Origin: Aquisediminimonas profunda | GTDB taxonomy: Bacteria; Pseudomonadota; Alphaproteobacteria; Sphingomonadales; Sphingomonadaceae | Assembly (NCBI RefSeq): GCF_019443285.1 | Contig: NZ_CP080327.1 | Coordinates: forward strand, 3,158,001-3,222,000 | Reading direction: 5' to 3' | DNA: 64,000 nt | Shown: positions 2,702 through 41,828 of the stretch, piece after piece | Position numbering within the stretch: the stretch's first letter is position 1 | Layout: each line of letters starts with the position of its first letter | Notes under the pieces: model-generated | Seen by the model: the letters and a program-made list of their open reading frames with translations, nothing else | What the model was told of the DNA's origin: nothing | Database searches by the model: none | Program-made: the position numbers and the translations under genes

Positions 2702-2711
2702 GTGAGGCCCC

Positions 2712-3722
2712 CTAGCGCCAGCCGAGAACCCGGCGCGCAGCTGCTTCGACCTTTTCGGCCGAAGGCAGATATGCGAGCTCAAGCTCCTTGGCGAATGGAA
2801 CCGGCGTGTGGGGCGCTGTGACCATCTCGATCGGTGCCTTGAGGCTAGCAAAGGCCTTTTGGGCAACCAGCGCAGAAATGTCGGTCGCCAGGCTGCAGCG
2901 CTGTGGCGCTTCATCCACAACCACCAGACGCCCGGTCACTTCAACAGAATCCAGGATCGCTTCCTCATCAAGCGGACTTGTGGTCCGCGGATCGATCACG
3001 TCACAGCCGATCCCGTCCTTGGCGAGGGCATCCGCTGCAGCCTCGCATCGGCTGACCATTAAGCCGGTTGCAACCAGTGTAAGATCTTCGCCTGCACGTG
3101 AAAGCCGGGCATGGCCGAAGGGGATGGTATAATCGCCATCTGGCACTTCACCGCTCACACCGTAAAGCGCCTTGTGCTCGAGGAACATGACGGGGTCGTC
3201 GCCACGAATGGCCTCGCGAAGCAGGCCGCGAACATCTTCCGGGGTCGACGGCATGACCACCTTCAGGCCGGGCATCGCCGAGAGGAAGTGATGAACCGAT
3301 TGGCTGTGCTGCGCCGCAGCGTTGAAGCCTCCGCCATAGGCCATGCGGATGACCGCAGGACAGAGCGTCTTGCCGCCGAACATATAGCGGAATTTGGCAA
3401 TCTGGTTCCAGATCTGATCGAGGCTGACACCGATGAAATCCGCGAACATGAGTTCGGCAACCGGCCGCTTGCCGGCAAGCGCCAGACCGCCGGCCGCCCC
3501 GACAATTGCGCTTTCGGAGATCGGCGTATCGATCACACGATCCGCCCCAAATCGATCATAAAAGCCGGTGGACGTTGACCAGATGCCACCAATGGCTTCA
3601 GGCCCGCCGGCGGTCCCCATGCCGCCGACAACATCCTCACCGAGCACGACTACCCGATCATCGCGTTCCATCTCCTCGAAAATCGTGGAGCGGACTGCAT
3701 CGCGATACATCATCTTGGCCAT
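2712..3722 (-). CDS. 2-oxo-acid dehydrogenase E1 beta subunit
   Basis: The 336-aa protein is the E1 beta subunit of a thiamine-diphosphate 2-oxo-acid (acetoin or pyruvate type) dehydrogenase. It carries the usual N-terminal VVLGEDVVGGMGT, the TPISESAIVGAAGGLALAGKRPV stretch and the central AQHSQSVHHF segment expected of the family, followed by the C-terminal transketolase domain (DPRTTSPLDEEAIL). The start at 3722 has a GGGGA ribosome site. It sits 16 bp downstream of E1alpha and 10 bp upstream of E2, so the three are one operon. A second E1beta is encoded at 39.8-40.8 kb; the two are paralogues with clearly different sequences. Confidence 0.93.
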   Translation of the reverse strand: MAKMMYRDAVRSTIFEEMERDDRVVVLGEDVVGGMGTAGGPEAIGGIWSTSTGFYDRFGADRVIDTPISESAIVGAAGGLALAGKRPVAELMFADFIGVSLDQIWNQIAKFRYMFGGKTLCPAVIRMAYGGGFNAAAQHSQSVHHFLSAMPGLKVVMPSTPEDVRGLLREAIRGDDPVMFLEHKALYGVSGEVPDGDYTIPFGHARLSRAGEDLTLVATGLMVSRCEAAADALAKDGIGCDVIDPRTTSPLDEEAILDSVEVTGRLVVVDEAPQRCSLATDISALVAQKAFASLKAPIEMVTAPHTPVPFAKELELAYLPSAEKVEAAARRVLGWR

Positions 3723-3738
3723 TTGCAGATTTCCCCGC

Positions 3739-4710
3739 TCAATAGGTCACATACACGTCGGCGAGAACATCTTCCGCCGTTGGTCTTTCCGCATTTCGCG
3801 CCGCAACAACAGCAGCCTCGATCTGGTCGAGAACCTCGCGATCAATCTCGTCCAGTTCCTTTTCGTCGAGCAGTTTGGCACTCGCCACCTTGGCCCGGAA
3901 CTTTTGCAGGCAATCGCGTTCGGCCCGAATTTTCTCAAGCTCGCCCGGCCCACGGTACCTCTGCGGATCGCCCTCGAAATGCCCAAAGAAGCGCTCGGTA
4001 TCGAACTCGACGGCCGCAGGTCCGTTGCCGGCCCGAACATAGTCAAGCAGTTCGCGCATGGTTTCATAGACGGCAAAGAAATCGGTGCCGTCAGCCCGCC
4101 AAACCCTCATTCCGAATGCCTCAGCGCGACTGGCGATGTCCCGCTGCGTCCCAACTGCATAGGAAAAGCCGGTATGTTCGGAATAGTGATTGTTTTCAAA
4201 CACGAAAATGCAAGGCGCCTTGGTCACAACGGCAAGATTCATTGCCTCGAAGGTTGTGCCCTGATTGCAAGCGCCATCGCCGGAAAAGGTGACCGAGACC
4301 TTGCCCTTGCCATCCAGTTTCGCTGCCAGGGCTGCGCCCACAGCGATCGGAGCCCCTGCCCCGACGATGCCATTGGCGCCAAGCATCCCCTGATCGACAT
4401 CGGCAATGTGCATCGAACCGCCCTTGCCTTTGCAAAGTCCCTCGCGGCTACCCCAAATCTCTTTCATCATGCCTTCGACATCGCAGCCCTTGGCGAGGCA
4501 ATGGCCATGGCCCCGGTGCGTGGAGACAATCTTGTCGTCCTTATCCAGATGCTCGCACACGCCGACAGCGACCGCTTCCTGGCCGCAGTAAAGGTGCGTA
4601 AATCCGGCTATGGCGCCCGTGGCAATATCGATGTGCAGCCGCTCTTCAAATTCGCGAATGATCTTCATCCGCCGATAGGCCTGCAACATTTGTTCACGGC
4701 TCAGTTGCAT
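3739..4710 (-). CDS. 2-oxo-acid dehydrogenase E1 alpha subunit
   Basis: The 323-aa E1 alpha subunit binds thiamine diphosphate: the motif GDGACNQGTTFEA followed by FENN is the TPP/Mg signature. It also has the GHGHCLAKG and CKGKGGSMHI segments typical of acetoin/pyruvate dehydrogenase E1alpha. The open frame continues upstream to 4863, but ATG 4710 is chosen because it has a good GAGAGGAAA ribosome site and gives the normal family N-terminus. It is the first gene of the operon. A perfect 12-bp palindrome lies 26 bp upstream of the start. It converts a 2-oxo acid or acetoin to an acyl group on the E2 lipoyl arm; substrate unknown. Confidence 0.92.
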   Translation of the reverse strand: MQLSREQMLQAYRRMKIIREFEERLHIDIATGAIAGFTHLYCGQEAVAVGVCEHLDKDDKIVSTHRGHGHCLAKGCDVEGMMKEIWGSREGLCKGKGGSMHIADVDQGMLGANGIVGAGAPIAVGAALAAKLDGKGKVSVTFSGDGACNQGTTFEAMNLAVVTKAPCIFVFENNHYSEHTGFSYAVGTQRDIASRAEAFGMRVWRADGTDFFAVYETMRELLDYVRAGNGPAAVEFDTERFFGHFEGDPQRYRGPGELEKIRAERDCLQKFRAKVASAKLLDEKELDEIDREVLDQIEAAVVAARNAERPTAEDVLADVYVTY

Positions 4711-4735
4711 GTTTTCCTCTCGATCCGTTGGTCGG

Positions 4736-4747
4736 GCCTGCGCAGGC
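4736..4747. promoter_or_regulatory. Perfect 12-bp palindrome upstream of E1alpha, possible operator
   Basis: GCCTGCGCAGGC is a perfect palindrome 26 bp upstream of the E1alpha start codon, in the 287-bp divergent region between the E1/E2 operon and the MDR gene at 4998. The rest of that region shows no gene. Its position fits an operator for either operon, but no regulator is known and a chance origin is possible. Confidence 0.3.
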
Positions 4748-4997
4748 AAATTGTTCAGCCTGGAAGCCGCACGATGAACCCGCTGGTCATAGCGCAAGTC
4801 TAATGTGATGCGTGAGCAATTCTGCCCATTCGTCAAATTGCTAGGATTCTGCGTTTGGTTCATACCTGTTCAGTCGATATGCCTCGCGCCGGTCCGTTCA
4901 AACCTTGGTGCTTCTTCCTCACATATTGAATGGTTGTTGGCCAAACGCTCCGTGATTAGAGGTTTTAAGAATATCCCGGACAATCAGGAGAGAGACA

Positions 4998-20257: not shown

Positions 20258-20357
20258 GATCCGCTTTGGACCGCTGATACTGCGCGACAACAACCCTTTA
20301 TTTTGATGAGGTGCGGCGCGCGCAATCCGGCGCTACGTGTCAATCAGGGAGAATGAC

Positions 20358-23907: not shown

Positions 23908-24047
23908 ATGCCTTCTCCAAAATACCGATGTCAAAGAATCTCAGTGAAGCCGCTATGCACAGGCGGGGTGGGCGCACGCTACAGCCAAAATTGCCAGTCG
24001 CGTGGCCAGTTCGGGCCGCTAGTATCACAGTGAGAGGAGTTGCACCC

Positions 24048-26210: not shown

Positions 26211-27224
26211 ATGACAGATAATCGCCGGTTTCTCCTCCGCCGTCGTCCGCAAGGAGAACCAGTGGCGCAGGACTTTGAACTGGTTACCGAGCCCAAGCCG
26301 TCAATTGCGGATGGACAGTTTCTCATTCGCAACCACTATGCTTCGCTCGACCCTGCAATGCGCGGCTGGATGGACGACGCGGATAGCTATATGCCGCCGA
26401 TTCCGCTGGGCGCGCCTGTGCGGGCCAGCACGATTGGCGTTGTCGAGGAGAGCCGGGCGGAAGGTTTCGTTCCCGGTCAATGGGTCATGGGGCTCCATGC
26501 CATCGAAGACTATTCCGTTTCCGCTGCCGGCGGTTTTACGCAACCGATCGATCCCGCAATCGTGCCCAGTGTGACCAACTATCTCTCTCTTTTCGGTGCA
26601 GTGGGAATGACAGCCTATTTCGGCTTGCTCGAAGTGTGCGAGCCGAAGGCCGGTGAGACTGTTCTTGTTTCCGGCGCGGCGGGGGCCGTGGGTTCAATCG
26701 TGGGGCAGCTTGCCAAGATCCAGGGCTGTCGGGTGGTCGGTATCGCAGGCGGTGCCGAAAAATGCGCACGCTTGGTGGACCGTTACGGCTTTGACGCAGC
26801 CATCGATTATCGGGGAAAGGACGAGGCAGCCCTTGTCGCTGCGATCGCCAAGGAAGCACCCAATGGTGTCGATGTGATTTTTGAGAATGTCGGTGGGATT
26901 GTCCTCGATGCCGGGTTGATGAACCTCAACATGCACGCTCGCGTTGGACTATGTGGCCTGATCAGTGAGTATAATTCGCCTGAACCGGTGGGCGCGCGCA
27001 ATCTGTGGAGACTGATCGTCAAACGCGCGTCCATTCGCGGCTTGCTCGTCGCTGATTATGTTGCGCGTTTTGGCGAAGGCGCGGCAAAAATGGGTGAATG
27101 GGCAGCACAGGGCCGTATTGTGGTCGACGAGCACATTGACGATGGCATTGAGCATGCATTTGATGCATTCATGCGCCTGTTCAGCGGAACCAATCAAGGC
27201 AAGATGATCCTGAGGATCGCCTGA
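26211..27224 (+). CDS. Zinc-independent MDR oxidoreductase (fourth paralogue)
   Basis: A 337-aa reductase starting TDNRRFLLRRRPQGEP, the standard N-terminus of this PTGR/CurA-like family. It has VLVSGAAGAVGSIVGQLAKI, GIAGGAEKCARLVDRYG and IFENVGGIVLDAGL. It is 12 bp after the molybdopterin gene, and its stop shares a base with the ATG of the ThuA-like gene (TGATG). Likely reduces a C=C bond conjugated to a carbonyl; which intermediate is unknown. Confidence 0.9.
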   Translation: MTDNRRFLLRRRPQGEPVAQDFELVTEPKPSIADGQFLIRNHYASLDPAMRGWMDDADSYMPPIPLGAPVRASTIGVVEESRAEGFVPGQWVMGLHAIEDYSVSAAGGFTQPIDPAIVPSVTNYLSLFGAVGMTAYFGLLEVCEPKAGETVLVSGAAGAVGSIVGQLAKIQGCRVVGIAGGAEKCARLVDRYGFDAAIDYRGKDEAALVAAIAKEAPNGVDVIFENVGGIVLDAGLMNLNMHARVGLCGLISEYNSPEPVGARNLWRLIVKRASIRGLLVADYVARFGEGAAKMGEWAAQGRIVVDEHIDDGIEHAFDAFMRLFSGTNQGKMILRIA

Positions 27225-27997
27225 TGCCTCGAGACTTACTCGTGCTGTCGGGAGGGCATCCCTATGACGAAGATGCTTTTGCCGATTTGCTCGGGAGCTT
27301 GACGGATTGGACTGTAACGCATCTGATCCACCCCGAAGCTGAGCGGATGGTTGCGGAGGGAACCGCGGCCAGCGCTGATGCCATGCTGTTTTATGACATG
27401 CCCGGCTATCGCTTCGAAAATGGCATTGTCGATGTGCAGCCACCCAGCGACGCGTTCAAGCGCGCCATGATCGACCGCTTTGAGAAGGGTCGCGGGGCAG
27501 TTGCCATGCATCATGCGATTGCCGGATGGGCTCTCTGGCCCGAATGGTCCGAGATTATTGGCGGCCGTTTCCTTTATCAGCCAGGAGAAGTTCGAGGTCG
27601 ACCAGTGCCGGACTCCGGGTACCGGCACGATGTAACCTATCGCGCCACAGTCATCGCCAGCCATCCAATTACAGAAGGCCTGCCTCCAGACTTTGAAATG
27701 ACGGACGAACTCTATCTCGCCCAGATCTTTGAGGATTCAATCTTTCCATTGATCAGGGCAGAGCATGATTTCCTCGCAGGCAATTTCTACTCTGCCGCTG
27801 CAGCGGTGGCTGGCCGGATGTTCGACAATAAGGGCTGGGACCATCCGACCGGCAGCAATTGCGTTGCCTGGACCAAGCCGGCCCGCAACGCCGACCTGGC
27901 CTATCTGCAATTCGGCGACGGGCCCGAAACCTATGCCAATCCAAACGTCCGGAGACTGATTTCAAACGCGCTCGGCTTTGTTGCGCGATCGGACTGA
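27224..27997 (+). CDS. ThuA-like protein (first of two)
   Basis: A 257-aa protein of the ThuA/trehalose-utilisation-like family, a class-I glutamine-amidotransferase-like fold without proven chemistry. Matches are LLVLSGGHPYDEDAF at the start, GRGAVAMHHAIAGWALWPEWSEIIGGRF in the middle, and HPITEGLPPDFEMTDELYL, the usual ThuA pattern of an acidic-E-L-Y segment. It is coupled to the MDR gene. A second, diverged copy is at 32746. Role in a catabolic cluster is unknown; members elsewhere are tied to sugar or ketone metabolism. Confidence 0.82.
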   Translation: MPRDLLVLSGGHPYDEDAFADLLGSLTDWTVTHLIHPEAERMVAEGTAASADAMLFYDMPGYRFENGIVDVQPPSDAFKRAMIDRFEKGRGAVAMHHAIAGWALWPEWSEIIGGRFLYQPGEVRGRPVPDSGYRHDVTYRATVIASHPITEGLPPDFEMTDELYLAQIFEDSIFPLIRAEHDFLAGNFYSAAAAVAGRMFDNKGWDHPTGSNCVAWTKPARNADLAYLQFGDGPETYANPNVRRLISNALGFVARSD

Positions 27998-28096: not shown

Positions 28097-29332
28097 ATGG
28101 GCCACTACAGCAAGATGTTCTCGCATGAGACGCTGGTCGACCCTTTCGACTTTTATCGCGAAGTCCACGGTGAAGGGACGAAGGTCGCGCACATACCTGA
28201 AATGAACACGTTTATCGTGTTCAGTTATGACCTTTGTGCCGAGGCAACAGGCCGCCCCGAGGTCTTTTCGAATGATTTCGGTTCGTTGATGGCCAAACAG
28301 GATCCGGAGATTGATGCCATCCTTGCGGAAGGTTGGGACAATCCTCCAACGCTTCTCACCGCCGATCACCCTGTCCATACGCGCAATCGCAAACTGGTGA
28401 ACCTCGCATTCTCGGCTCCGCGGGTGAATGCAATCGAGGCAGACATGCGTGCAAAGTCGATCGAGCTGATCGAGTCCATGGCTGACAAGGGCGAATGCGA
28501 GTTTGTGGAGGCATTTGCGATTCCGCTGCCGGTGGCGATGATTGCCCAGCAGATCGGCCTCGACAACGATCCGAAGCAGGTCAAATACTGGTCGGATTGT
28601 GCTGTCGACCGGTTCAGCCAAATGATTGACCGTGAGCGTGAGATCGAATGTGCGCGAAGCTTTATCGAATATCAGAAATACATGAAGGGCAAGATCGACG
28701 ATCGCCGGGCAAATGGCGGTGACGATCTGCTCACTGATCTGGTCGAGGCGCGGATCGAGGGAGAAACGCCACTGACCGATGAGGAAATCATGTCGATCAT
28801 GCAGCAATTCATGGTCGCGGGGAACGAAACGACGACCTCTACTCTGGCGGGAGGCTTGCTGCAGTTGATCCGCAACCCCGACCAAATGGCCAAGGCAAAG
28901 GCAGCGGCCGGGGGGCGCGATCCCAAATTGATGCTCAATCTGGTCGAGGAAGCACTGCGCTACGAAACGCCAAGCGCGGGCATGTGGCGCGTCGTAAAAG
29001 AGGATGCAGAACTCGGCGGGGTCAAGATACCCAAGGGGGCGACAGTGCAATTGCGCTACGCCGCTGCCAACAGGGATCCCGCCAAATTCCCCGATCCTGA
29101 CAAATTCGACATTGAGAGATCCAATGCCAAGACACATTTGGCTTTCGGGCGCGGCCCGCACATGTGTGTCGGCAACATGCTCAGCCGCAAGGAATTGTTT
29201 GTCGCCTTTGACGAACTGCTCAATCGGCTGGATCATTTCGCAATCTCTGACGAATCGGGCATAAGGGTCCTCCCGAATATTCTCTTGCGCGGGGTGACGC
29301 GCTTGCCGATCACCTTCCGGAGGGCAGGATGA
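28097..29332 (+). CDS. Cytochrome P450 (third of three)
   Basis: A 411-aa soluble P450: I-helix QFMVAGNETTTSTLAGG (canonical AGxET), ExxR helix EEALRYETPSAG, heme loop FGRGPHMCVGNM with C357. It starts the long operon 28097-35636; its stop overlaps the acyl-CoA dehydrogenase start by 4 bp. Placement at the head of a beta-oxidation-like operon recalls CYP125/CYP142 or terpene P450s that oxidise a side chain before CoA activation, but that is analogy only. Confidence 0.93.
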   Translation: MGHYSKMFSHETLVDPFDFYREVHGEGTKVAHIPEMNTFIVFSYDLCAEATGRPEVFSNDFGSLMAKQDPEIDAILAEGWDNPPTLLTADHPVHTRNRKLVNLAFSAPRVNAIEADMRAKSIELIESMADKGECEFVEAFAIPLPVAMIAQQIGLDNDPKQVKYWSDCAVDRFSQMIDREREIECARSFIEYQKYMKGKIDDRRANGGDDLLTDLVEARIEGETPLTDEEIMSIMQQFMVAGNETTTSTLAGGLLQLIRNPDQMAKAKAAAGGRDPKLMLNLVEEALRYETPSAGMWRVVKEDAELGGVKIPKGATVQLRYAAANRDPAKFPDPDKFDIERSNAKTHLAFGRGPHMCVGNMLSRKELFVAFDELLNRLDHFAISDESGIRVLPNILLRGVTRLPITFRRAG

Positions 29333-30417
29333 ATTTCGACCTGTCCGAAGAGCAGACGCTGTTCAAGGCAACAGTTGAGCGCTTTTCGGCAAAGATGGAC
29401 GTGCCAGCGCGGCAACGGCTGAGGAAATCGGACGGTGCGTACGACCGCGAACGCTGGCGGGAGCTTGCAGGATTTGGTCTCATCGCACTTTGCGCAGATG
29501 AAGACGATGGCGGCATCGGCGGGTCCTCGATGGATCTCGCCATTGTTGCGGAATCGCTTGGTCACGGCCTGGCACCGGACCCCTGGATCGAAAATGCGGT
29601 ACTTCCACTGCGCCTGCTCACCGCAGCGGGGGCAACGGCCGGTATTGCACCCTTAATTGACGGCGACCGTATCGTGGCTGCGGCACTGGCTGAGCGACGT
29701 GGCCGATACAATCTTCAGCCACAAACCACGAAAGTTACTGTTCATGGTGGACGTCAAACCCTCCGCGGCGAAAAGACGTTTGTCTTGGGTGGCGCAATAG
29801 CGGATGATTTTCTGGTTTCCGCGACGAGGGATGGCACCCTCGTCCTCTGCCTCGTTTCCGGAGACAGTACGGGCGTCGACAGACACATATATCGGCTCGT
29901 TGATGGCAGTCTGGCCTGCGAACTGCGCCTCAACGACGTGGAATTGTCCGCAGACGCTGTCTTTGTTCTTGAACAGAACGCGTTGACGGGCATCGTGGCA
30001 GACGTACGGTTGATTGCGGCCGGCGAATTGCTGGGGCTAGCGCAGCGCCTGTTCGATGACACGCTGGATTACGTGAAGCAGAGGGAGCAATTCGGGGTTT
30101 CCATCGGTACATTTCAGGCAATCCAGCACCGTCTCGTCGATTGTTATGCGCAGCTCGAGCAAGCGCGATCGATGCTCTATCGGGCCGCCATGCAGGATCG
30201 CAGCGATGGAACGAGCTGGCACCGCAGTGCCGCCGGGGCGAAGGCCTTCATCGGGGAGCAGGCCGGCTTTATCGCGCGCGAAGCCGTCCAGCTTCACGGC
30301 GGGATGGGAATAACAGATGAATTGTCGATTGGTCACGGTTTGAAGCGCGTGATGCTGCTCAACGCGTTTCTGGGCGACAGCGACACCACATTAACGGATT
30401 ACGCGGAGGCCGCATGA
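29329..30417 (+). CDS. Acyl-CoA dehydrogenase-family protein (alpha of a likely heteromeric pair)
   Basis: A 362-aa ACAD: N-terminal helices FDLSEEQTLFKATVERFSAKMD, the flavin region, and C-terminal REQFGVSIGTFQAIQHRLVD with HGGMGITDELSIGHGLKRV. It is shorter than most homomeric ACADs. A second ACAD (33505) is in the same operon; in steroid catabolism such pairs form alpha2beta2 heterotetramers in which only one chain has the catalytic Glu. ATGA overlaps join it to the P450 and DUF35 genes. It would desaturate an acyl-CoA at the alpha-beta position. Confidence 0.88.
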   Translation: MNFDLSEEQTLFKATVERFSAKMDVPARQRLRKSDGAYDRERWRELAGFGLIALCADEDDGGIGGSSMDLAIVAESLGHGLAPDPWIENAVLPLRLLTAAGATAGIAPLIDGDRIVAAALAERRGRYNLQPQTTKVTVHGGRQTLRGEKTFVLGGAIADDFLVSATRDGTLVLCLVSGDSTGVDRHIYRLVDGSLACELRLNDVELSADAVFVLEQNALTGIVADVRLIAAGELLGLAQRLFDDTLDYVKQREQFGVSIGTFQAIQHRLVDCYAQLEQARSMLYRAAMQDRSDGTSWHRSAAGAKAFIGEQAGFIAREAVQLHGGMGITDELSIGHGLKRVMLLNAFLGDSDTTLTDYAEAA

Positions 30418-30818
30418 GCAGTCTGACACCAATTGCAAAGAATCTCTGGACGGAAGAGGCCGAGCCGCACCTGATTGGCGGACGCCTGCCTTCGGGCGAA
30501 ATTGTCTTTCCGATGCCGGAAGGGGATGCTGCGGCTGGTGTCGAACCCTATCCTTTGTTGAGGAAGGGAACATTATGGTCCTTCACGAGCCAGGAGTTCC
30601 GTCCAAAGTCGCCCTATGAAGGACCCGGCGAAGGGCCGCACGACTTCAAACCCTACTTGCTCGGCTATATTGAGCTGCCGGGCGAAGTCATCGTTGAAAG
30701 CCTTATTGTCGACGCGGCCATTGGAGACCTGAAACTCGGGATGCCGATGGAGTTCGTGATCGTCCCCTTTAATGCTGTCCATACCACTTTTGCATTCCGT
30801 CCGGAGAAGCAATCATGA
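30414..30818 (+). CDS. DUF35 (OB-fold) protein, thiolase/aldolase partner, zinc ribbon lost
   Basis: A 134-aa DUF35-type OB-fold protein lying between ACAD and thiolase genes, with ATGA overlaps at both ends. In the family the N-terminal rubredoxin-like ribbon carries four cysteines; here the matching stretch reads GGRLPSGEIVFPMPEGD and the whole protein has no cysteine, so no zinc site can form. The OB-fold part (LLRKGTLWSFTSQEFRPK ... PYLLGYIELPGEVIVESLI) is intact. In steroid side-chain degradation DUF35 domains activate Ltp2-type aldolases, which fits the neighbour at 30815. Partner role inferred from context. Confidence 0.82.
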   Translation: MSSLTPIAKNLWTEEAEPHLIGGRLPSGEIVFPMPEGDAAAGVEPYPLLRKGTLWSFTSQEFRPKSPYEGPGEGPHDFKPYLLGYIELPGEVIVESLIVDAAIGDLKLGMPMEFVIVPFNAVHTTFAFRPEKQS

Positions 30819-31960
30819 GCGACGTCTATATCATTGGTGCGGGTATTCATCCCTTCGGCCGGACAGCAGGTCGATCGGGTCGCGAACAGGGCGTTTTCGC
30901 TGTAAGACAGGCACTTGCCGATGCTGGGCTGGAGTGGAGCGATATCGGCTGCGCCTATGGCGGTTCGGCATCATCCGGCGCAGCTGATATCATGGTCAAT
31001 GAACTGGGTCTGACGAGTCTGCCCTTCGTAAATGTTGCCAACGGCTGTGCGACGGGGGGAAGCTCTCTTGCCTCTGCAAAATACGCCGTCGCATCCGGGG
31101 CGTTCGATCTCGCGCTGGCAACCGGGTTCGACAAGCATGATCGCGGCGCTTTTAATGCTGACCCGGCAAGTTATGGATTGCCAGCCTGGTATGGGCAAAC
31201 CGGCATGATGCTGACGACGCAATTCTTTGCGCTCAAGATTCAGCGTTACATGCAAAAATACGGCATCAGCCGCAAAACACTTGGCCTTGTGGCGGAAAAG
31301 GCCTTCCGTAATGGCGCAAAGACTGATCATGCATGGCGCCGCACTGAAGTGGACCTGGATACGATCCTCAATGCTCCGATGATCAATGATCCGCTGACAA
31401 AATTCATGTTCTGCTCGCCTGCTGAAGGCGGCGTGGCCCTGATCCTCGCGAGCGAGCGCAAGATGCGCGAACTGGGAGCAGATGGCGTCAAGATCGCGAA
31501 TATCTCGGTTCGCAGCCGTCCACCGCACAGCTTTGAAGTATTCCAGGCCGGAATCAGCGTAACTGAGGGCGGGAAGCCAACCGAGCTGGCATCAAAGGCC
31601 GCATTCGAAGGGGCCGGGATTGGTCCCGAGGATGTCGATGTTGCGCAGCTGCAAGACACCGAGAGCGGCGCCGAAATTATGCATATGGCGGAAAATGGCT
31701 TTTGTGCAGATGGTGACCAGGAACAATGGCTTGCTGAAGGTCGAACGGAGATTGGCGGGCGGCTGCCCGTCAATACCGACGGTGGTTGCCTTGCCTGCGG
31801 TGAACCCATTGGAGCATCGGGTCTTCGCCAGGTCTATGAGAATGTGCAGCAACTGCGCGGCCGTGGCGGGGCTCGGCAAGTGCCGGGCAACCCAAAGATC
31901 GGTTACAGCCATGTGTATGGGGCGCCGGGGCTTTCCGCTGTCGCGATCCTGGAACGCTAG
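30815..31960 (+). CDS. Thiolase-fold protein of SCP-x/Ltp2 type
   Basis: A 381-aa thiolase-superfamily protein similar to sterol-carrier-protein-x thiolases and Ltp2 retro-aldolases: VYIIGAGIHPFGR start, FVNVANGCATGGSSLASA with C78 at the thiolase cysteine position, and a C-terminal GGCLACGEPIGASGL. In true thiolases this last segment has GHP; here the His position is Glu (GEP). So normal thiolysis is doubtful, and a retro-aldol role with the DUF35 partner is plausible. ATGA overlap with DUF35; 9 bp to the next SDR. The family call is firm, the reaction is inference. Confidence 0.88.
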   Translation: MSDVYIIGAGIHPFGRTAGRSGREQGVFAVRQALADAGLEWSDIGCAYGGSASSGAADIMVNELGLTSLPFVNVANGCATGGSSLASAKYAVASGAFDLALATGFDKHDRGAFNADPASYGLPAWYGQTGMMLTTQFFALKIQRYMQKYGISRKTLGLVAEKAFRNGAKTDHAWRRTEVDLDTILNAPMINDPLTKFMFCSPAEGGVALILASERKMRELGADGVKIANISVRSRPPHSFEVFQAGISVTEGGKPTELASKAAFEGAGIGPEDVDVAQLQDTESGAEIMHMAENGFCADGDQEQWLAEGRTEIGGRLPVNTDGGCLACGEPIGASGLRQVYENVQQLRGRGGARQVPGNPKIGYSHVYGAPGLSAVAILER

Positions 31961-31969
31961 GAGTCTGAA

Positions 31970-32740
31970 ATGGGATGCGTCGAGGGTAAGGTTGCGCTGA
32001 TTTCGGGCGGTGCGGAGGGCATTGGGGCAGCAGCTGCCACAATGATCATTGCCGAAGGCGGAAGCGTGATGCTGGCAGATGTACAGATCGAAAAGGCCAA
32101 AGCCCTCGCCGCGAAGCTGGGGGCCAAGGCTGCCGCCGTGTCACTCGATGTCCGCGACCTCTCCCAGTGGCAAAATGCGGTCAAGGCTTGTGTCGACCGG
32201 TTTGGCAAGCTCAATATCCTTTTCAACGTCGCAGGCATCTCCGAACCTGGCAATGTCGTGGATGTCGATCTGGATAGCTGGCAGCGCACAATTGACATCA
32301 ATCTGACCGGAACCTTCTACGGCTGCAGGGCAGCACTTCCTGCTATGGAAGCAACGGGAGAGCCCGGTGCAATCGTCAATATCGGATCGATGCAAGCGAT
32401 CCGACCCGGCGCGACTTTTGCGGCCTATGGTGCTTCAAAAGCAGGTGTTCAGGCTTTGACGCGTACGATTGCCCTGGACTGCGCGGCGCGCGGTCTGCCC
32501 ATCCGGGCCAATTTGGTTCATCCCGGCGCCATTCGCACGGCCATGTATGACCGATACAAATTTTCCGGTCAGGCCGACCCCGACATGATCGAAACTCAAT
32601 TTGCGGCTGCGCACCCCATGAACCGGATCGGCGAGGCCGAAGAAGTCGCCCGCGCAATGGTCTTCCTCGCCAGCGATCAGGCAAGTTTCACGACCGGCTG
32701 CGACTTCACGGTCGATGGCGGCGGATCCATAAGGTCTTGA
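31970..32740 (+). CDS. Short-chain dehydrogenase/reductase (SDR 3)
   Basis: A 256-aa classical SDR: LISGGAEGIGAAAA cofactor loop, NVAGISEPGNV, catalytic IVNIGSMQAIRP and AAYGASKAGVQAL, and the C-terminal GCDFTVDGGGSIR. It is intact in all catalytic positions. In the operon it follows the thiolase-like gene and could be the 3-hydroxyacyl-CoA or ring-alcohol dehydrogenase of the pathway. Confidence 0.9.
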   Translation: MGCVEGKVALISGGAEGIGAAAATMIIAEGGSVMLADVQIEKAKALAAKLGAKAAAVSLDVRDLSQWQNAVKACVDRFGKLNILFNVAGISEPGNVVDVDLDSWQRTIDINLTGTFYGCRAALPAMEATGEPGAIVNIGSMQAIRPGATFAAYGASKAGVQALTRTIALDCAARGLPIRANLVHPGAIRTAMYDRYKFSGQADPDMIETQFAAAHPMNRIGEAEEVARAMVFLASDQASFTTGCDFTVDGGGSIRS

Positions 32741-32745
32741 ATGTC

Positions 32746-33501
32746 ATGAGCCATACACCTCCAAAACGTATCGACGCCCATTTCGTGGCCGCTGGAAAAT
32801 ATCATGACATTGATTATGCCCGGCTTGAATTGCTGAAGCTGCTCGCGGAACATCCCTATGTCCGCACGACCGTTGCCTGCGACTATGGCGACATAGACAG
32901 GATCAAGCAGTGCCGCTTTCTCGTCAGCTACACCTGCGATCTTATGCCAACCAAGGAAGAGGCCACTGCCATCCGCAGCTGGCTGGAAACCGGCGGAAAA
33001 TGGCTTGCTTTGCACGGCACCAATTCGATTCTTGTGTTCACGGAAAGCGGTCTGGTCGACGCGCCGAACGACAGGCCAGACGTCATGGAAATGCTTGGCA
33101 CCCAATTCAAGGCGCATCCGCCGATTGGTCCCTTCCGAGTGGAAGTCGTCAATCGCGACCATGAATTGACACGCGGGATTGACGATTTTGATGTCGTCGA
33201 CGAACTCTATTTGTCTCATACAACCGCGCCCATAGACACTCTCATGCAGACACATTTCGAGGGTGATGCGACGGGATTCGTTGATGGGAAATGGGGCGCG
33301 ACTTCTGTCCCGATTCTTTACACTCGTGATATCGGCAAAGGCCGGATCGTCTACAACGCCCTCGGACATTGCCGCGGGCACTACGACCTGCCGGGAATGG
33401 CCGATTTCTATCCGCACCCTGAGCGGTGCGCCTGGAACTACGATGTCTATTATGACCTGTTGCGGCGCGGCATTGAGTGGGCATTGCGTGAAGGGGATTA
33501 A
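32746..33501 (+). CDS. ThuA-like protein (second)
   Basis: A 251-aa ThuA-family protein: IDAHFVAAGKYHDIDYARLEL, LVSYTCDLMPTKEEA, WLALHGTNSILVF and RGIDDFDVVDELYLSH, followed by GKGRIVYNALGHCRGHYD. The frame is open from a TTG at 32737 that overlaps the SDR stop; the ATG at 32746, with AAGG eleven bases ahead, is used. It is in an operon with acyl-CoA enzymes, unlike the usual sugar context of the family. Reaction unknown. Confidence 0.83.
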   Translation: MSHTPPKRIDAHFVAAGKYHDIDYARLELLKLLAEHPYVRTTVACDYGDIDRIKQCRFLVSYTCDLMPTKEEATAIRSWLETGGKWLALHGTNSILVFTESGLVDAPNDRPDVMEMLGTQFKAHPPIGPFRVEVVNRDHELTRGIDDFDVVDELYLSHTTAPIDTLMQTHFEGDATGFVDGKWGATSVPILYTRDIGKGRIVYNALGHCRGHYDLPGMADFYPHPERCAWNYDVYYDLLRRGIEWALREGD

Positions 33502-33504
33502 CTG

Positions 33505-34713
33505 ATGGACATGCAATTCTCCTCCGAAGATCTTGCATTCCGCGAGGAAGTTCGGACTTTTCTTGCAGAGTCGCTGCCTGAGCGGCTGCGCGACGGAGCC
33601 CGCCGTTCTCCCGGGGTTTTCGTCGAGCCTGACATTGGCCTCGAATGGCACCGCATTCTCTATGAAAAGGGATGGGTCGCCTATCATTGGCCGAAGGAAG
33701 ATGGCGGAACAGGCTGGACCCCCACCCAGAAATTCATATTCGAGAAGGAGTGTGCGCTTGCCGGCGCTCCTGCCCTGTCAATTCTCGGGCTGCGTCTGGT
33801 CGGCCCTGTAATCTGCGCCTTTGGCACCCCAGAACAAAAGGCTCGTTTCCTGCCGGGCATATTGTCCGGAACTGTCTATTGGTGTCAGGGATATTCGGAG
33901 CCCGGCAGTGGCTCTGACCTGGCTTCCCTGTCGACGGGCGCACGCCTTGATGGCGACGAATATGTTATCAACGGGTCCAAGATCTGGACGACACATGCAC
34001 ACCATGCCGATTGGATATTTGCGCTGGTCCGGACCAATACCGAGGTCAAGAAGCAACAGGGAATCACGTTCCTGCTGGTCCCCATGGACCAGCCGGGCGT
34101 TGAAGTTGCTCCGATCATATCAATGTCGGGTGACCATGAAGTCAATCAGGTCTTTTTCACCGACGCCCGCACAGCTGCGAACAATCGGATTGGCGAAGAA
34201 GGCCAGGGATGGACGATTGCCAAGTTCCTTCTTGAAAACGAACGTGGCGGCTCCTGTTTCGCGCCCCGGCTTCTTCAGAATATTGCCGAACTCGAGGAGT
34301 TGGCGAAATCGCAGCCATCGGGCGTCAACGGAGCCATTGCGCACGATCCGCGCTTCCGGGACCGTCTTGCCCGGGTAAAATTGCAGGCTGAAGCGTTGGA
34401 AGTGACCGAACTGCGCATCCTCGCGGAACTGGCAAAGGGCCGCCAACCGGGGCCACAGACTTCTTTGACCAAACTCCTCGGTTCCAATCTCGGCCAGGCA
34501 GTCGATACGTTGCGCATTGAGCTTCTGGGCTATGATGCAATGCAATTGCCTCTTGAGCGGCCGCTCTATGGCAATCAGGCCCCTGAACCCATCGGCAGCG
34601 AACGCGCACAAACAACAATGGCGCGCTTCCTCAATAATCGTGCCGCAACGATTTTCGGCGGATCCGACGAAACTCAGAAGAACATCATCGCAAAGTCCGT
34701 GCTTGGTCTTTGA
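33505..34713 (+). CDS. Acyl-CoA dehydrogenase (beta of a likely heteromeric pair)
   Basis: A 402-aa ACAD with the flavin-binding WCQGYSEPGSGSDLASL and GSKIWTTHAHHADW segments and the C-terminal IFGGSDETQKNIIAKSVLGL. This is the FadE17/FadE26-like lineage often paired with a second, shorter ACAD in steroid degraders. It is the more canonical of the two ACADs here (see 29329). It lies 3 bp after the ThuA gene, in the same operon. Confidence 0.9.
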   Translation: MDMQFSSEDLAFREEVRTFLAESLPERLRDGARRSPGVFVEPDIGLEWHRILYEKGWVAYHWPKEDGGTGWTPTQKFIFEKECALAGAPALSILGLRLVGPVICAFGTPEQKARFLPGILSGTVYWCQGYSEPGSGSDLASLSTGARLDGDEYVINGSKIWTTHAHHADWIFALVRTNTEVKKQQGITFLLVPMDQPGVEVAPIISMSGDHEVNQVFFTDARTAANNRIGEEGQGWTIAKFLLENERGGSCFAPRLLQNIAELEELAKSQPSGVNGAIAHDPRFRDRLARVKLQAEALEVTELRILAELAKGRQPGPQTSLTKLLGSNLGQAVDTLRIELLGYDAMQLPLERPLYGNQAPEPIGSERAQTTMARFLNNRAATIFGGSDETQKNIIAKSVLGL

Positions 34714-34754
34714 GTCCATTCAAGAAAGTCACTGACATGGATACAGGGAAATTG

Positions 34755-35636
34755 ATGTTCCGAGAGGGACTGCTCGGCGACCGGCGCATTCTGATCACCG
34801 GTGGCGGGACAGGCCTTGGGCGTGAAATGGCGGAGGCCTTCGTCAAACTGGGCGCAACAGTTCATATTTGTGGCCGACGACTCAACAAGCTGGAAGAAAC
34901 CGCCGACGAGTTGATGACGGCGCACGGTGGCAAGGTCGTCCCTCACGCTTGTGACATCCGGGATGCCGATGCAATCAAGGTGATGGTCGATGCCATCTGG
35001 GCCGAAGGCGGCGCACTTGATGGCGTTGTGAACAACGCAGCCGGCAACTTTATAAGCCGAACGGAAGATCTGTCGGTCAATGGATTCAACGCCATTGCCG
35101 ATATTGTATTTCGTGGCACATTTTACCTCACGCTCGAAGTCGGCAAGCGCCAGATCGCAGAAGCAAAGCCCTGTAGCTTCCTCTCGATCCTGACAACATG
35201 GGTCTGGAACGGATCGGCCTTTGTTGTCCCTTCGGCAATGTCGAAGTCGGCCATCAACACGATGACGCAAAGCCTTGCGGTCGAATGGGGCCGTTATGGC
35301 ATGCGATTCAATGCAATCGCGCCAGGGCTGTTTCCAACCAAGGGCATGAGTGCACGTCTTTCACCAGAAGGGCGCGGTGGCAATTCGAACAATCAGCTCA
35401 ATCCGATGGGGCGCCATGGTGAGATGCACGAGCTCGCAAATCTCGCGGTGTTCCTGATGGGACCCGGGGCAGAATATGTAAACGGCCAGACCATTGCGAT
35501 CGATGGCGCAGGCTACCAGGCAACAGGCGGCACCTTCTGGCCTGCGTTGCACAGCCTTGGCGACGAAGATTGGGATCGTTTGCGGGCAATGATCAAAGGC
35601 ACAAACGAGAAGGACAAGGCTGATCGTTCTGCCTGA
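34755..35636 (+). CDS. SDR of 2,4-dienoyl-CoA reductase type (SDR 4)
   Basis: A 293-aa SDR close to the DECR branch: RILITGGGTGLGREMAEAF, NNAAGNFISRTEDLS, and SAFVVPSAMSKSAINTMTQS, where the Tyr of YxxxK is Ser as in mammalian DECR1, then LAVEWGRYGMRFN and APGLFPTKGMSARL. It would reduce a dienoyl-CoA with NADPH. Open frame reaches 34710; ATG 34755 is preferred because AGGGA stands seven bases ahead and family members begin MFRxxLL. It ends the 28.1-35.6 kb operon. Confidence 0.88.
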   Translation: MFREGLLGDRRILITGGGTGLGREMAEAFVKLGATVHICGRRLNKLEETADELMTAHGGKVVPHACDIRDADAIKVMVDAIWAEGGALDGVVNNAAGNFISRTEDLSVNGFNAIADIVFRGTFYLTLEVGKRQIAEAKPCSFLSILTTWVWNGSAFVVPSAMSKSAINTMTQSLAVEWGRYGMRFNAIAPGLFPTKGMSARLSPEGRGGNSNNQLNPMGRHGEMHELANLAVFLMGPGAEYVNGQTIAIDGAGYQATGGTFWPALHSLGDEDWDRLRAMIKGTNEKDKADRSA

Positions 35637-35746
35637 GCTTTCACGGCCAATCCCTTAACCTCCCCATGCGCTCGTGCATTTCGGGCGCGATTTTGCTAGT
35701 ATCGATTCGTCAGGGGCTCAAATAGCTTAGGATGAGGGGAGTTGTC

Positions 35747-36571
35747 GTGAAGGACCGAGCCAAAATGGGTAACGTTGTTGAATTGCGCACGCCGCAAGGG
35801 CGCGAGTCTCTTGGCCAGTTGCTCGAACTTGTTACCGTGAAAAGCCCTGAAGACATCCATGACGCGGCAGTCGTCATGGCCCGTGTCGCGCAAGAGCGCG
35901 GCCTCCAGGTCGCAATGTGCAGTGACATTTCCTCAAAGGAACCGATGGTCGATGCCGAAGGCACGATCCTGAATGCAGATATCTTCCGTTGGCTGTCCGA
36001 TGGTGCCCGTTGGTGGGAAGATCATCGGCTTGCCCTCCATTCTCCCTTGCCGCGCGCCTGCCGTTATGAAAGCGAACCCTTTTGGGTCAATCGGCACGGT
36101 TTCCATGGCCTTTGGCGCAACAATTATCTGAATGAAATTGACCTTAGGGAATTTGAACGGCGCTCGCTTTGCAAGGCTGCCATCGTCGTGCCGGTCCACC
36201 TGCCCTTTGGCCAGATATCCGCGAACAGCTTCATCAGCATGGACCGAGACAAGGAAGACCTGTCCGAGGAGTTCGCCGAGCACGGAGCCATGCTCGCTCA
36301 ACTCACACGCCGGTTTATCGCGGGATATGTCCAGGCAATCCGGGCAAAGCGTCGAATCCCGTCGGACTGTGTCCTTTCAAAGCGCGAGGTGGAGTGTCTT
36401 CGCTGGGCGGCCATTGGCAAGACCGACAAGGAAATCAGCATGATCCTCGATCGGAGCCATGCCACGATCCGCTACCATGTCCATCGCGCTGGGGAAAAGC
36501 TTGACTCGGTCAATCGCGCACAGACAATTTTCAAGGCGGCACAGCTCGGATATTTGGGCGCCAGCGACTGA
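35747..36571 (+). CDS. LuxR-family transcriptional regulator, GTG start
   Basis: A 274-aa protein with a C-terminal LuxR helix-turn-helix at about 210-270 (LSKREVECLRWAAIGKTDKE ... SHATIRYHVHRAGEKLDSVN) and an N-terminal region resembling the autoinducer-binding fold (WWEDHRLALHSPLPRACRYE). GTG 35747 is chosen for GGGGAG five bases ahead; ATG 35732 and ATG 35765 are alternatives. No luxI-type synthase is in the window, so it is a LuxR solo and may sense a pathway metabolite. It lies just downstream of the big operon and is the only regulator inside the catabolic cluster, so it is the best candidate for its control. Confidence 0.87.
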   Translation: MKDRAKMGNVVELRTPQGRESLGQLLELVTVKSPEDIHDAAVVMARVAQERGLQVAMCSDISSKEPMVDAEGTILNADIFRWLSDGARWWEDHRLALHSPLPRACRYESEPFWVNRHGFHGLWRNNYLNEIDLREFERRSLCKAAIVVPVHLPFGQISANSFISMDRDKEDLSEEFAEHGAMLAQLTRRFIAGYVQAIRAKRRIPSDCVLSKREVECLRWAAIGKTDKEISMILDRSHATIRYHVHRAGEKLDSVNRAQTIFKAAQLGYLGASD

Positions 36572-36579
36572 CCTCGCCC

Positions 36580-37113
36580 TTAGCCGAGCTTTCTTATCGG
36601 GTCGTTGCCGTCCCAGTTTTGGGCTGCCTGCTTGATCATGCCAAAAACTTCCGCCGTGCCGGGCTGAGGTTGAAGCATTTCCACCAATGTTCCCGGCCCG
36701 CCACCGGGATCGGCGTAAATCACGTGCCCGGTATCACCGACGCGGCCTTCGACGAGCACTTTGGCGCCATGTCTCGCACAGGCATCATAAGCCTCCGAAA
36801 TATCATCCAAAAGCAGGCAGGTATGGTGCAGGCGGTCGCGGACGGCATATTCGCCGCAGTAGATTGAGGGTGCATCATTCTCGGGACGGATCAACTCGAT
36901 CTGGGTGTCCCCCCAATAGGACAGCGCAAGGCTGAAGACAGCGTCGGTTGGCTTGCCCATATATCGCATGTCATTGAGCTGTATGTTTTCCATCAGGAAA
37001 AATGGTCCCACGCCCATGACTTCTGTCCAGTAGCGGACTGCAGCATCGAAATCGGGTGGCAGCCAGGCAAGCTGCATTACAGGTCCCAGCCGTGACAAAC
37101 CGCGTGCTTTCAT
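36580..37113 (-). CDS. VOC-fold protein (second)
   Basis: A 177-aa vicinal-oxygen-chelate protein: VMQLAWLPPDFDAAVRYWTEVMGVGPFFLMEN, then RLHHTCLLLDDISEAYDAC and GTLVEMLQP with the Glu ligand position. It ends WDGNDPIRKLG, matching the WDGxDPxRxL tail of the VOC protein at 12141, and both have the GPFF segment. ATG 37113 with GAGGAG seven bases ahead is preferred to the GTG at 37128. Divergent from the third Rieske gene. Likely epimerase/isomerase or lactonase-like; reaction unknown. Confidence 0.83.
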   Translation of the reverse strand: MKARGLSRLGPVMQLAWLPPDFDAAVRYWTEVMGVGPFFLMENIQLNDMRYMGKPTDAVFSLALSYWGDTQIELIRPENDAPSIYCGEYAVRDRLHHTCLLLDDISEAYDACARHGAKVLVEGRVGDTGHVIYADPGGGPGTLVEMLQPQPGTAEVFGMIKQAAQNWDGNDPIRKLG

Positions 37114-37213
37114 TTCCTCACTCCTCACAGTTACGCTAGGATGCGTTGACGATAAAATGTGGCATTTTTGGATCGTGGCAAACTAGGCAATTGGACAGTG
37201 AGGTTTCAGTCCC

Positions 37214-38632
37214 ATGAATGAAGTCAAGAAAATCACGCCTGCAGATCGCTGTCCGGCAATGAGCTACACTGAAATGCTCGAAGCCGACACGCGCAGGGTT
37301 CCGGACTATCTGTTCGAGGAATCGAACATCGAGATGCCAAACGATCCAATTGCGATTGAGCCATACATCAGCGCCGACTTTGCAACACTCGAGCAAGAGC
37401 GGATGTGGCCGAATGTCTGGCTCTTTGCTGCGCGCGAGGACGAGCTGCCCGATCCGGGCGACACAGTCGTTTTCGAAATCAATGACAAGTCGTTTCTGCT
37501 CGTACGGCAGCGGGATGGCAGCGTGAGGGCATTTTACAACGTTTGCCTTCATCGCGCCCGCAAGCTGCGCACCAAATCAGGTCCGTCAACGCAATTGCGC
37601 TGCAACTTTCACGGATTCACCTGGAACAACGACGGGTCGCTCAAGGAAATTCCCTGCGCCTGGGATTTCAAGCACCTTGAAGGCAAGGATATGAGCCTGC
37701 CCGAAGTTCGCGTCAATGTATGGCAGGGCTTCGTCATGATCACGGAAAATGACAAGATTGCCGATTTCAAGGACTGGGTCGGGCCGGTCCTAGACCAGTA
37801 CGAGAATTACGATTTCGAGAATCGCTACACTGGCATGTGGGTCGCGAAGAAGGTGGCTGCAAACTGGAAGGCAACGGCCGAAGCCTTCATGGAAGCATGG
37901 CATTCGGTTACGACCCACCCTCAACTTCTGCCATTCCTCGGCGATGCAAATACGCGGTATGATCTTTACGGCGACTTCTTCAATCGTGCGATCACGCCTT
38001 CCGGTGTCTTGAGCCCGCATATGTCGGGCAAGGACCAGCAATATGTGCTCGACAAGATGGCAGAGTTTTCTGGCGGAAGCGATGCAAAGACCAATCGTCG
38101 CTTCACAGCGAGCGGTGAGAAGGTAGAGCTTGACCCCAATGATCCGTTGCAGGCGCGCAAGCTGCTTGCCGAAGCCAGTCGTGCGGGCTTCACCGCCCAA
38201 TATGGCTATGACTATTCAGACAAGTCAGACGCCGAGATTCTCGACAACTTCACCTACAATATCTTCCCCAATTTTTCGCCCTGGATTGGATACCTTCCGA
38301 CACTCGTTTATCGTTGGCTGCCCGGCGATACTCCAGACTGGTGCATTATGGAAATACGCCTGTTGATGCCGACACCCAAGGGGCAGAAGCGTCCGCGCGC
38401 AGTGGAACGGGTCTACATTCCAGATGATCAGCCTTTCGCGTGGGCCAAGGAATATATGGGCGAAGCGCTCGCCGGTGTTTTCGATCAAGACCTTGCCAAT
38501 TTGCCTCACGTGCAGACTGGAATGAAGGCATCTGGGAATGGTGTGATGGAACTCGGCGCTTATCAGGATAGCCGCGTGCGCCATTTCCAGACCACTTTGA
38601 TGAAGTATATCAACGGCGAATTGCCCGCCTGA
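37214..38632 (+). CDS. Rieske non-heme iron oxygenase, alpha subunit (third)
   Basis: A 472-aa alpha subunit, longer than the other two. Rieske ligands C111, H113, C130 and H133 (CLHRAR ... CNFHGF); iron site NWKATAEAFMEAWHSVTTHP with H230 and H235. The N-terminal 45 residues precede the usual domain start. Upstream, GCAATTGGACAGTGAGG includes a 9-base match to the palindrome at 15326. An NmrA-type gene follows after 18 bp. Sequence differs strongly from the other two Rieske proteins, so each likely acts on a different intermediate. Confidence 0.9.
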   Translation: MNEVKKITPADRCPAMSYTEMLEADTRRVPDYLFEESNIEMPNDPIAIEPYISADFATLEQERMWPNVWLFAAREDELPDPGDTVVFEINDKSFLLVRQRDGSVRAFYNVCLHRARKLRTKSGPSTQLRCNFHGFTWNNDGSLKEIPCAWDFKHLEGKDMSLPEVRVNVWQGFVMITENDKIADFKDWVGPVLDQYENYDFENRYTGMWVAKKVAANWKATAEAFMEAWHSVTTHPQLLPFLGDANTRYDLYGDFFNRAITPSGVLSPHMSGKDQQYVLDKMAEFSGGSDAKTNRRFTASGEKVELDPNDPLQARKLLAEASRAGFTAQYGYDYSDKSDAEILDNFTYNIFPNFSPWIGYLPTLVYRWLPGDTPDWCIMEIRLLMPTPKGQKRPRAVERVYIPDDQPFAWAKEYMGEALAGVFDQDLANLPHVQTGMKASGNGVMELGAYQDSRVRHFQTTLMKYINGELPA

Positions 38633-41793: not shown

Positions 41794-41828
41794 GATCCTG
41801 CCTCTTGCCTTGTGCGACCGACAGCGCG

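Follow-up and report, generated by a model that had tools for sequence, protein, structure and literature searches.

Here we examined a 64,000-nucleotide stretch of the Aquisediminimonas profunda genome (contig NZ_CP080327.1, positions 3,158,001 to 3,222,000 of the forward strand; hereafter the window), in which an open reading frame (ORF) list and family profile searches place eight ORFs head to tail on the plus strand, with tight spacing, between positions 28097 and 35636. The main subject is a pair of neighbouring products of this operon, a small DUF35 protein and a thiolase-fold protein with an altered active site, together with the two acyl-CoA dehydrogenases (ACADs) encoded with them. 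Which genes are present, how they are linked, the division of the ACAD into two subunits, the pairing of DUF35 with a thiolase and the altered active site are all read directly from the sequence. An initial annotation of the window had named eight gene families as one operon, and all eight ORFs lie where it had placed them, with family matches that agree. In a literature search by titles and abstract openings, mostly of papers outside subscription, we recognised no published description of the cluster. Relatives were collected by scanning a genome collection with a family alignment, which gave at least 587 confirmed relatives, and the best 80 loci were analysed; because these are the best 80 of at least 587, the conservation counts concern the close family only. 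A neighbouring gene was counted as a homologue at 38% identity or more with half of the query covered, and these counts are lower bounds because many of the loci are shorter than 21 kb. The eight genes are the following.

28097..29332, plus strand: cytochrome P450 (PF00067), heme motif FGRGPHMCVG; 26/80 loci
29329..30417, plus strand: small (beta) ACAD subunit without the catalytic Glu; best NCBIfam match pimD_small, below cut-off; best PDB match 6wy8_A
30414..30818, plus strand: DUF35/OB-fold partner without zinc-ribbon cysteines (PF01796)
30815..31960, plus strand: thiolase-fold protein with the signature C78, Q280-D281-T282-E283 and G329-E330-P331
31970..32740, plus strand: short-chain dehydrogenase/reductase (SDR; PF13561), candidate 3-hydroxyacyl or ring-alcohol dehydrogenase; 38/80 loci
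32737..33501, plus strand: second ThuA-domain protein of the region (PF06283), TTG start uncertain; 37/80 loci
33505..34713, plus strand: large (alpha) ACAD subunit, predicted catalytic Glu246; best NCBIfam match pimC_large, below cut-off; best PDB match 4x28_A
34710..35636, plus strand: SDR related to 2,4-dienoyl-CoA reductase (best match NF005811, below cut-off), TTG start uncertain; 17/80 loci

The ATGA overlaps that had been attributed to the operon are present at the P450/ACAD, ACAD/DUF35 and DUF35/thiolase junctions; of the remaining junctions, two are TTGA overlaps only if the TTG starts are used and two are gaps of 9 and 3 bases. The extra ThuA and SDR genes noted before were recovered within the operon as PF06283 and PF13561 matches, the Gram-negative host is supported by inference, and the reported absence of a MaoC hydratase holds, PF01575 having no match in the 64-kb window and the DUF35 protein being a single domain. 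Among solved structures the P450 is matched best by CYP142 (197.7 bits) and by CYP125 types, with PikC-like chains near to them (about 181 bits).

Examination of the thiolase-like protein in 92 aligned sequences (the window protein, those of the 80 loci and 11 from plasmid records) identified Cys78, at the place of the thiolase nucleophile, Gln280, Asp281, Thr282 and Glu330 as identical in all of them; residue 283 was Glu in 91 sequences and Asp in one, and residue 366 was His in 78 and Gln in 14. In our alignments SCP2-type thiolase (PDB 6hrv/6hsj) and BbsB, of benzoylsuccinyl-CoA thiolase BbsAB (PDB 7pxp), have the nucleophilic cysteine, HDCF or HDAF, and GHP. The window protein shares the fold and the cysteine with both, but in the 92 sequences QDTE or QDTD and GEP stand in place of HDxF and GHP, so that both thiolase histidines are replaced, as is the Cys of HDCF; a further difference from SCP2-type thiolase is the adjoining DUF35 gene. 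The initial annotation had named an ordinary thiolase encoded at 30815 as part of the outcome that would count against its proposal, and, judged by sequence, this does not appear to be the case, both histidines being replaced. In the database records that we opened, the family goes under the names 'thiolase family protein' and 'acetyl-CoA acetyltransferase'.

The proposal of the initial annotation was a retro-aldolase of the Ltp2 type. For the steroid aldolase Ltp2-ChsH2(DUF35) (PDB 6ok1) the available part of PMC12329534 gives Tyr294, in a YDHF motif, and Tyr344 as catalytic; for the bile-acid aldolase Sal-Shy(DUF35) (PDB 9myr) it gives Tyr302 and Cys304 in YDCY, Gln352 at the place of Tyr344, and Gly at the place of the thiolase Cys, a residue that, according to published work, neither Sal nor the Sal2/Ltp2 homologues possess. 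Taking the Ltp2 residues from that source and matching positions by motif and offset, the spacing between residues 280 and 330 (50 residues) equals that of 294-344 in Ltp2 and 302-352 in Sal. Our protein shares its fold and a DUF35 partner with both aldolases and, with Ltp2, a heteromeric ACAD in the pathway; unlike Ltp2, it has Q280-D-T and Glu330 where the two Tyr residues stand (92 of 92 sequences) together with Cys78, and neither a fused nor an adjacent MaoC domain, and unlike Sal it has none of Tyr302, Cys304 and the nucleophile-place Gly. By its sequence, with the aldolase Tyr/Cys pairs and the thiolase histidines absent and Cys78 present, the protein belongs neither with the Ltp2/Sal aldolases nor with the ordinary thiolases; the Ltp2-type reading is not sustained, and none of the active sites compared (SCP2-type thiolase, Ltp2, Sal) fits it.

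Comparison of the predicted structure (mean predicted local distance difference test, pLDDT, 82.1) with solved folds ranked SCP2-type thiolase highest (Z 50.2), then archaeal thiolases (49.3 and 49.2), one of them from a DUF35 complex, and BbsB (48.9), these best matches having root-mean-square deviations (rmsd) of 1.8-2.5 over 350-356 aligned residues, followed by PhlC-type, SLP, Ltp2 (Z 43.0, rmsd 2.5, 354 aligned) and Sal (Z 40.8, rmsd 3.2, 356 aligned). The best solved matches by sequence are also SCP2-type thiolases, archaeal thiolases and BbsB. A tree of 30 sequences placed the QDTE/GEP group on one side of a branch with support of 100/100; the tree is long-branched and only the unity of this group is taken from it, and the alignments of 12 and 35 sequences were hand-chosen from the loci at hand. 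One relative with 37% identity (locus L024) has QDND and GEP motifs, so that the QD/GEP trait reaches past the close family; further QDND/GEP and HDxF relatives are more distant. Two Rhodococcus genes annotated as lipid-transfer proteins (loci L041, 10118-11299, and L043, 11719-12900) adjoin DUF35 genes and have Gly at the thiolase Cys place and YDCF, a signature like that of Sal/SLP aldolases. Two Rhodococcus operons hold both a QDTE/GEP protein and a separate Gly/YDCF homologue in one gene run, an arrangement that points to two distinct reactions within a single pathway.

The gene at 30414 is the sole PF01796 match in the host genome, and its score of 42.4 bits against a cut-off of 27.1 places the product in the DUF35 family with its OB fold. 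Of the ten solved folds that score best against its predicted model (mean pLDDT 89.6), nine are DUF35 subunits from the complexes of BbsAB, acetoacetyl-CoA thiolase/HMG-CoA synthase, PhlB-type, MucABC, Ltp2 and Sal, with Z of 10.3-12.9, rmsd of 3.3-4.5 and 18-24% identity; the remaining one is Trf factor (Z 10.4). A single-sequence PDB search with the same protein returned weak matches to P450 BM3 (best E 0.04), which we read as chance. The window protein has no cysteine at all, and two CxxC motifs occur in none of 78 related DUF35 sequences (75 have no such motif and three have one), so a C4 or C3H1 zinc ribbon is found neither in it nor in those relatives; the DUF35 partners in these loci have evidently lost the ribbon, which BbsAB has. 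CxxC...CxxC is kept in the DUF35 proteins of Rhodococcus loci L041 and L044.

The association of these genes extends far beyond the host. The 80 loci come mostly from Sphingomonadales (Erythrobacter, Porphyrobacter, Blastomonas, Sphingopyxis, Novosphingobium, Sphingobium, Croceicoccus and others), and the remainder include a SAR92 bacterium and metagenome-assembled genomes (MAGs) of Gemmobacter and Parvularculaceae. Homologues were counted for DUF35 in 75 loci, for the large ACAD in 63 and the small one in 30, and for the E1 alpha and E1 beta subunits of a thiamine pyrophosphate (TPP)-dependent dehydrogenase in 28 each. Under a looser rule, DUF35 lies directly upstream of the thiolase-like gene in 78 of the 80 loci, with 0-137 bases between aligned ends, bearing out the DUF35-thiolase pair of the initial annotation; in the two loci where no DUF35 is visible (L061 and L074), the sequence starts 69 and 1 bases short of the thiolase match. 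The full eight-gene order on one strand recurs in 15/80 loci at 47-86% protein identity, and the grouping is thus more than chance. In five of seven sphingomonad plasmid records DUF35, thiolase, ACAD, E1 alpha, E1 beta and E2 are consecutive; one of the other two starts at the thiolase, with the rest present, and the other lacks E1/E2. Homologues at 49-62% identity are carried by Rhodococcus, Streptomyces and Mycobacterium plasmids: the DUF35-thiolase pair stands beside ACADs and adenylate-forming ligases in three Rhodococcus records, and two ACADs follow the thiolase in that of Mycobacterium branderi. The thiolase-like gene was found in 37 of 199 sampled genomes of the host's family, the host counted. 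The gene group is common to many sphingomonads and not a local oddity, and the family marks a catabolic module widely common to Sphingomonadales. Among the other conserved neighbour clusters in the loci, some are antisense ORFs without meaning.

The two ACADs look like one alpha2beta2 enzyme, and the results support this view. Their best NCBIfam matches are the large and the small subunit of pimeloyl-CoA dehydrogenase, both below cut-off. Among solved structures, too, each is closest to a different subunit of heteromeric ACADs, the large protein to 4x28_A and 6wy8_B and the small one to 6wy8_A. We take 4x28 to be the ChsE4-ChsE5 enzyme, and residue 247 of 4x28_A, with which Glu246 of the large subunit aligns, is presumably the catalytic Glu of ChsE4. 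Glu246 is kept in 63 of 63 alpha sequences, and the beta position 226, aligned with the Glu of the YER motif in 4kto, is Glu in none of 31. One catalytic Glu per alpha-beta pair is the rule for heteromeric ACADs in the available part of a review, and the arrangement here, with the residue in one subunit only, agrees with the alpha2beta2-type pair of the initial annotation as far as such predicted subunit types allow. Subunit matches and a single catalytic Glu per pair are shared with ChsE4-ChsE5 and with Tcur3481-3483 (6wy8), but here the two ACAD genes stand apart, with four genes between them.

Taking these observations together, we prefer, at slightly less than an even chance, the reading that the operon is the core of a conserved sphingomonad catabolic module for shortening or opening a bulky acyl-CoA, which is probably polycyclic or terpenoid, and that a DUF35-thiolase variant, dependent on cysteine and without histidine, cuts its C-C bond. 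In the pathway that we envisage, the P450, Rieske enzymes, reductases and SDRs would oxidise the substrate, and its CoA ester would come from the ligase at 10549 or from the E1/E2 complex; the linked E1/E2 genes suggest that the acyl-CoA used by the ACAD may derive from a 2-oxo acid or acyloin. The alpha2beta2 ACAD would then desaturate this ester between its alpha and beta carbons, Glu246 of the alpha subunit acting as the base, a hydratase encoded elsewhere would add water, and an SDR would oxidise the 3-hydroxy group, SDRs able at family level to make a 3-keto group being present in the operon. Finally, C-C cleavage by the DUF35-thiolase complex would proceed via an acyl-enzyme bound covalently to Cys78, the retained cysteine favouring a covalent, thiolase-like route. 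In thiolases a His or Asn holds the oxyanion-hole water and a catalytic His is the acid/base; here Gln280 would take the first place and Glu330 the second, in a mechanism resembling that of BbsAB or SCP2-type thiolase and not that of Ltp2. Such a C-C-cutting enzyme, keeping one thiolase catalytic residue with the others replaced, may work in a manner not yet described. A wider proposal, possible and well short of an even chance, is that these proteins form a new catalytic class of the thiolase superfamily, C-C-cleaving complexes with Cys and Glu and neither His nor Tyr, having a DUF35 partner that is zinc-ribbon-less in sphingomonads, occurring in sphingomonads and actinobacteria, acting on a natural substrate not yet recognised and possibly providing the missing side-chain step of Sphingomonadaceae.

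Several observations weigh against the cleavage module. Ordinary thiolysis is doubtful with both thiolase histidines gone, and retention of a cysteine alone is no proof of covalent catalysis. The window (3,158,001-3,222,000) has no match to the MaoC (PF01575) or crotonase (PF00378) hydratases, other hydratase families not having been searched; the host genome has two MaoC matches, at 1.66 and 1.70 Mb, and 18 ECH_1 matches, all outside the window, the latter making hydration in trans possible. The beta position 225, one place before the catalytic one, is Glu in 8 of 31 sequences, and in Mycobacterium branderi the nearest DUF35 gene is about 2 kb upstream, with none directly before the thiolase. 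The thiolase model has low-confidence stretches at 112-117, 120-133, 190-194 and 240-250, and the P450, SDR and dienoyl-CoA reductase assignments are at family level only.

Of the alternatives, a retro-aldolase like Ltp2-ChsH2 or Sal-Shy, releasing an acyl-CoA from a 3-hydroxyacyl-CoA, seems unlikely to us. It would make use of the partner architecture and heteromeric ACAD context of the steroid aldolases and of the position of Glu330, 50 residues past Gln280 as Tyr344 is past Tyr294 in Ltp2 and Gln352 past Tyr302 in Sal; Glu330 and Glu283 would be the new acid/base residues, and a tertiary alcohol would require no oxidation. The essential Tyr of YDHF/YDCY is, however, Gln in all 92 sequences, Cys is retained where Sal has Gly, the DUF35 protein has no hydratase domain, and the separate Gly/YDCF homologue beside the QDTE/GEP protein in two Rhodococcus operons indicates that the two are probably not interchangeable. 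Different chemistry on the same scaffold, such as a Claisen-type condensation, acyl transfer, decarboxylation or hydrolysis of a ring 1,3-dicarbonyl, has the chances clearly against it as well. PhlABC and HMG-CoA synthase are examples of such other reactions in the thiolase superfamily, and a Cys with a Glu and without the thiolase His is reminiscent of its Claisen-type members; the fold neighbours include PhlC- and MucABC-type proteins, and the E1/E2 linkage would fit a keto-acid route. Against this, thiolases are nearest by sequence and the context looks degradative, with a P450, Rieske enzymes and ACADs, and TonB receptors in related records. That the operon serves ordinary fatty-acid or branched-chain beta-oxidation, of which ACADs, a thiolase-like protein and SDRs are the usual parts, we consider highly improbable given the division of the ACAD into two subunits that have a single catalytic Glu between them, the non-canonical thiolase site, the linkage to P450, Rieske and ThuA genes and the patchy spread in the host's family (37/199 genomes).

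Whether the operon is the missing steroid side-chain cleavage system of Sphingomonadaceae bears on a stated gap: according to the available part of a review, bile-acid-degrading members of the family are without Sal/Ltp2 homologues and their side-chain enzymes are unknown, and the present gene set is a candidate for it. The P450 has CYP142/CYP125 types as its best solved matches, with other P450s close behind, and a KstD-like flavoprotein is encoded at 18635-20293. With the threshold inherent in the search, KshA_C matches occurred in 16/37 carriers of the thiolase-like gene against 32/162 non-carriers (odds ratio 3.1, p 0.005); with the limit set at E 1e-20 the figures were 10/37 against 20/162 (odds ratio 2.6, p 0.039). 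The association is positive and of moderate strength, in a test that ignores kinship and genome size. In 21/37 carriers, including the host, there is nevertheless no KshA_C match, and in 27/37 no strong one. The host genome gave no KshA_C match and only below-cut-off matches to TIGR03213 (extradiol dioxygenase) and IpdE2, so the canonical 9,10-seco steroid pathway is not recovered from these markers; a divergent one could remain. A cholate-induced side-chain cluster of Caenibius is described, in the available part of a 2026 paper, without a thiolase or DUF35 gene. We regard a steroid function as rather improbable, and the steroid label of the initial annotation is unproven because the tested steroid-ring markers are missing from the host. 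By description, not by sequence, the module can also be likened to IpfDE of sphingomonad ibuprofen degradation, a thiolase-like activity with an OB-fold protein in its cluster, which in the accessible part of the source yields isobutylcatechol and propionyl-CoA and whose active-site residues that paper gives as absent from the literature. The background literature comprised the available parts of PMC12329534, PMC10653915, PMC11347016, PMC8399759, PMC8540908, PMC12882949 and PMC12175502.

The operon sits in a catabolic island, because the window additionally carries two P450s, two Rieske oxygenases, the KstD-like flavoprotein, a CoA ligase, three medium-chain dehydrogenase/reductases (MDRs) and two E1 dehydrogenase sets. 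On its upstream side the unit probably also takes in the reductase and ThuA genes (26211-27997), and on its downstream side those for the LuxR, VOC and Rieske proteins; all of these are listed here with the first E1/E2 set.

1283..4863, minus strand: TPP-dependent 2-oxoacid/acyloin dehydrogenase set, E2, E1-beta and E1-alpha; E1 in 28/80 and E2 in 27/80 loci
26211..27224, plus strand: ene-reductase-like MDR (ADH_N_2), best NCBIfam match curcumin reductase, below cut-off; 28/80 loci
27224..27997, plus strand: first ThuA-domain protein (PF06283); 17/80 loci
35732..36571, plus strand: LuxR-type regulator (PF00196); 51/80 loci
36580..37128, minus strand: VOC/glyoxalase-like protein (PF13669); 36/80 loci
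37214..38632, plus strand: Rieske oxygenase alpha subunit (PF00355/PF00848); 28/80 loci

The E1 alpha/beta sets are two (1283-4863 and 39836-41895), with an E2 gene seen beside the first only, and MDR reductases with an ADH_N_2 domain are four in the island (5046-6008, 8480-9487, 22906-23934 and 26211-27224). Among PDB entries the flavin adenine dinucleotide (FAD) protein at 18635-20293 is most like 3-oxosteroid 1-dehydrogenase, and its best NCBIfam match, below cut-off, is 4-oxocyclohexanecarboxylate 2-dehydrogenase; these resemblances are a possible hint of a ring-ketone substrate. Three further matches to acyl-CoA dehydrogenases lie on the minus strand shortly beyond the window, at host positions 3224823-3227550. 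The gene at 23928-26198, with a homologue in 23/80 loci, encodes a molybdopterin oxidoreductase that has an Fe4S4 domain and is of the formate dehydrogenase/nitrate reductase type.

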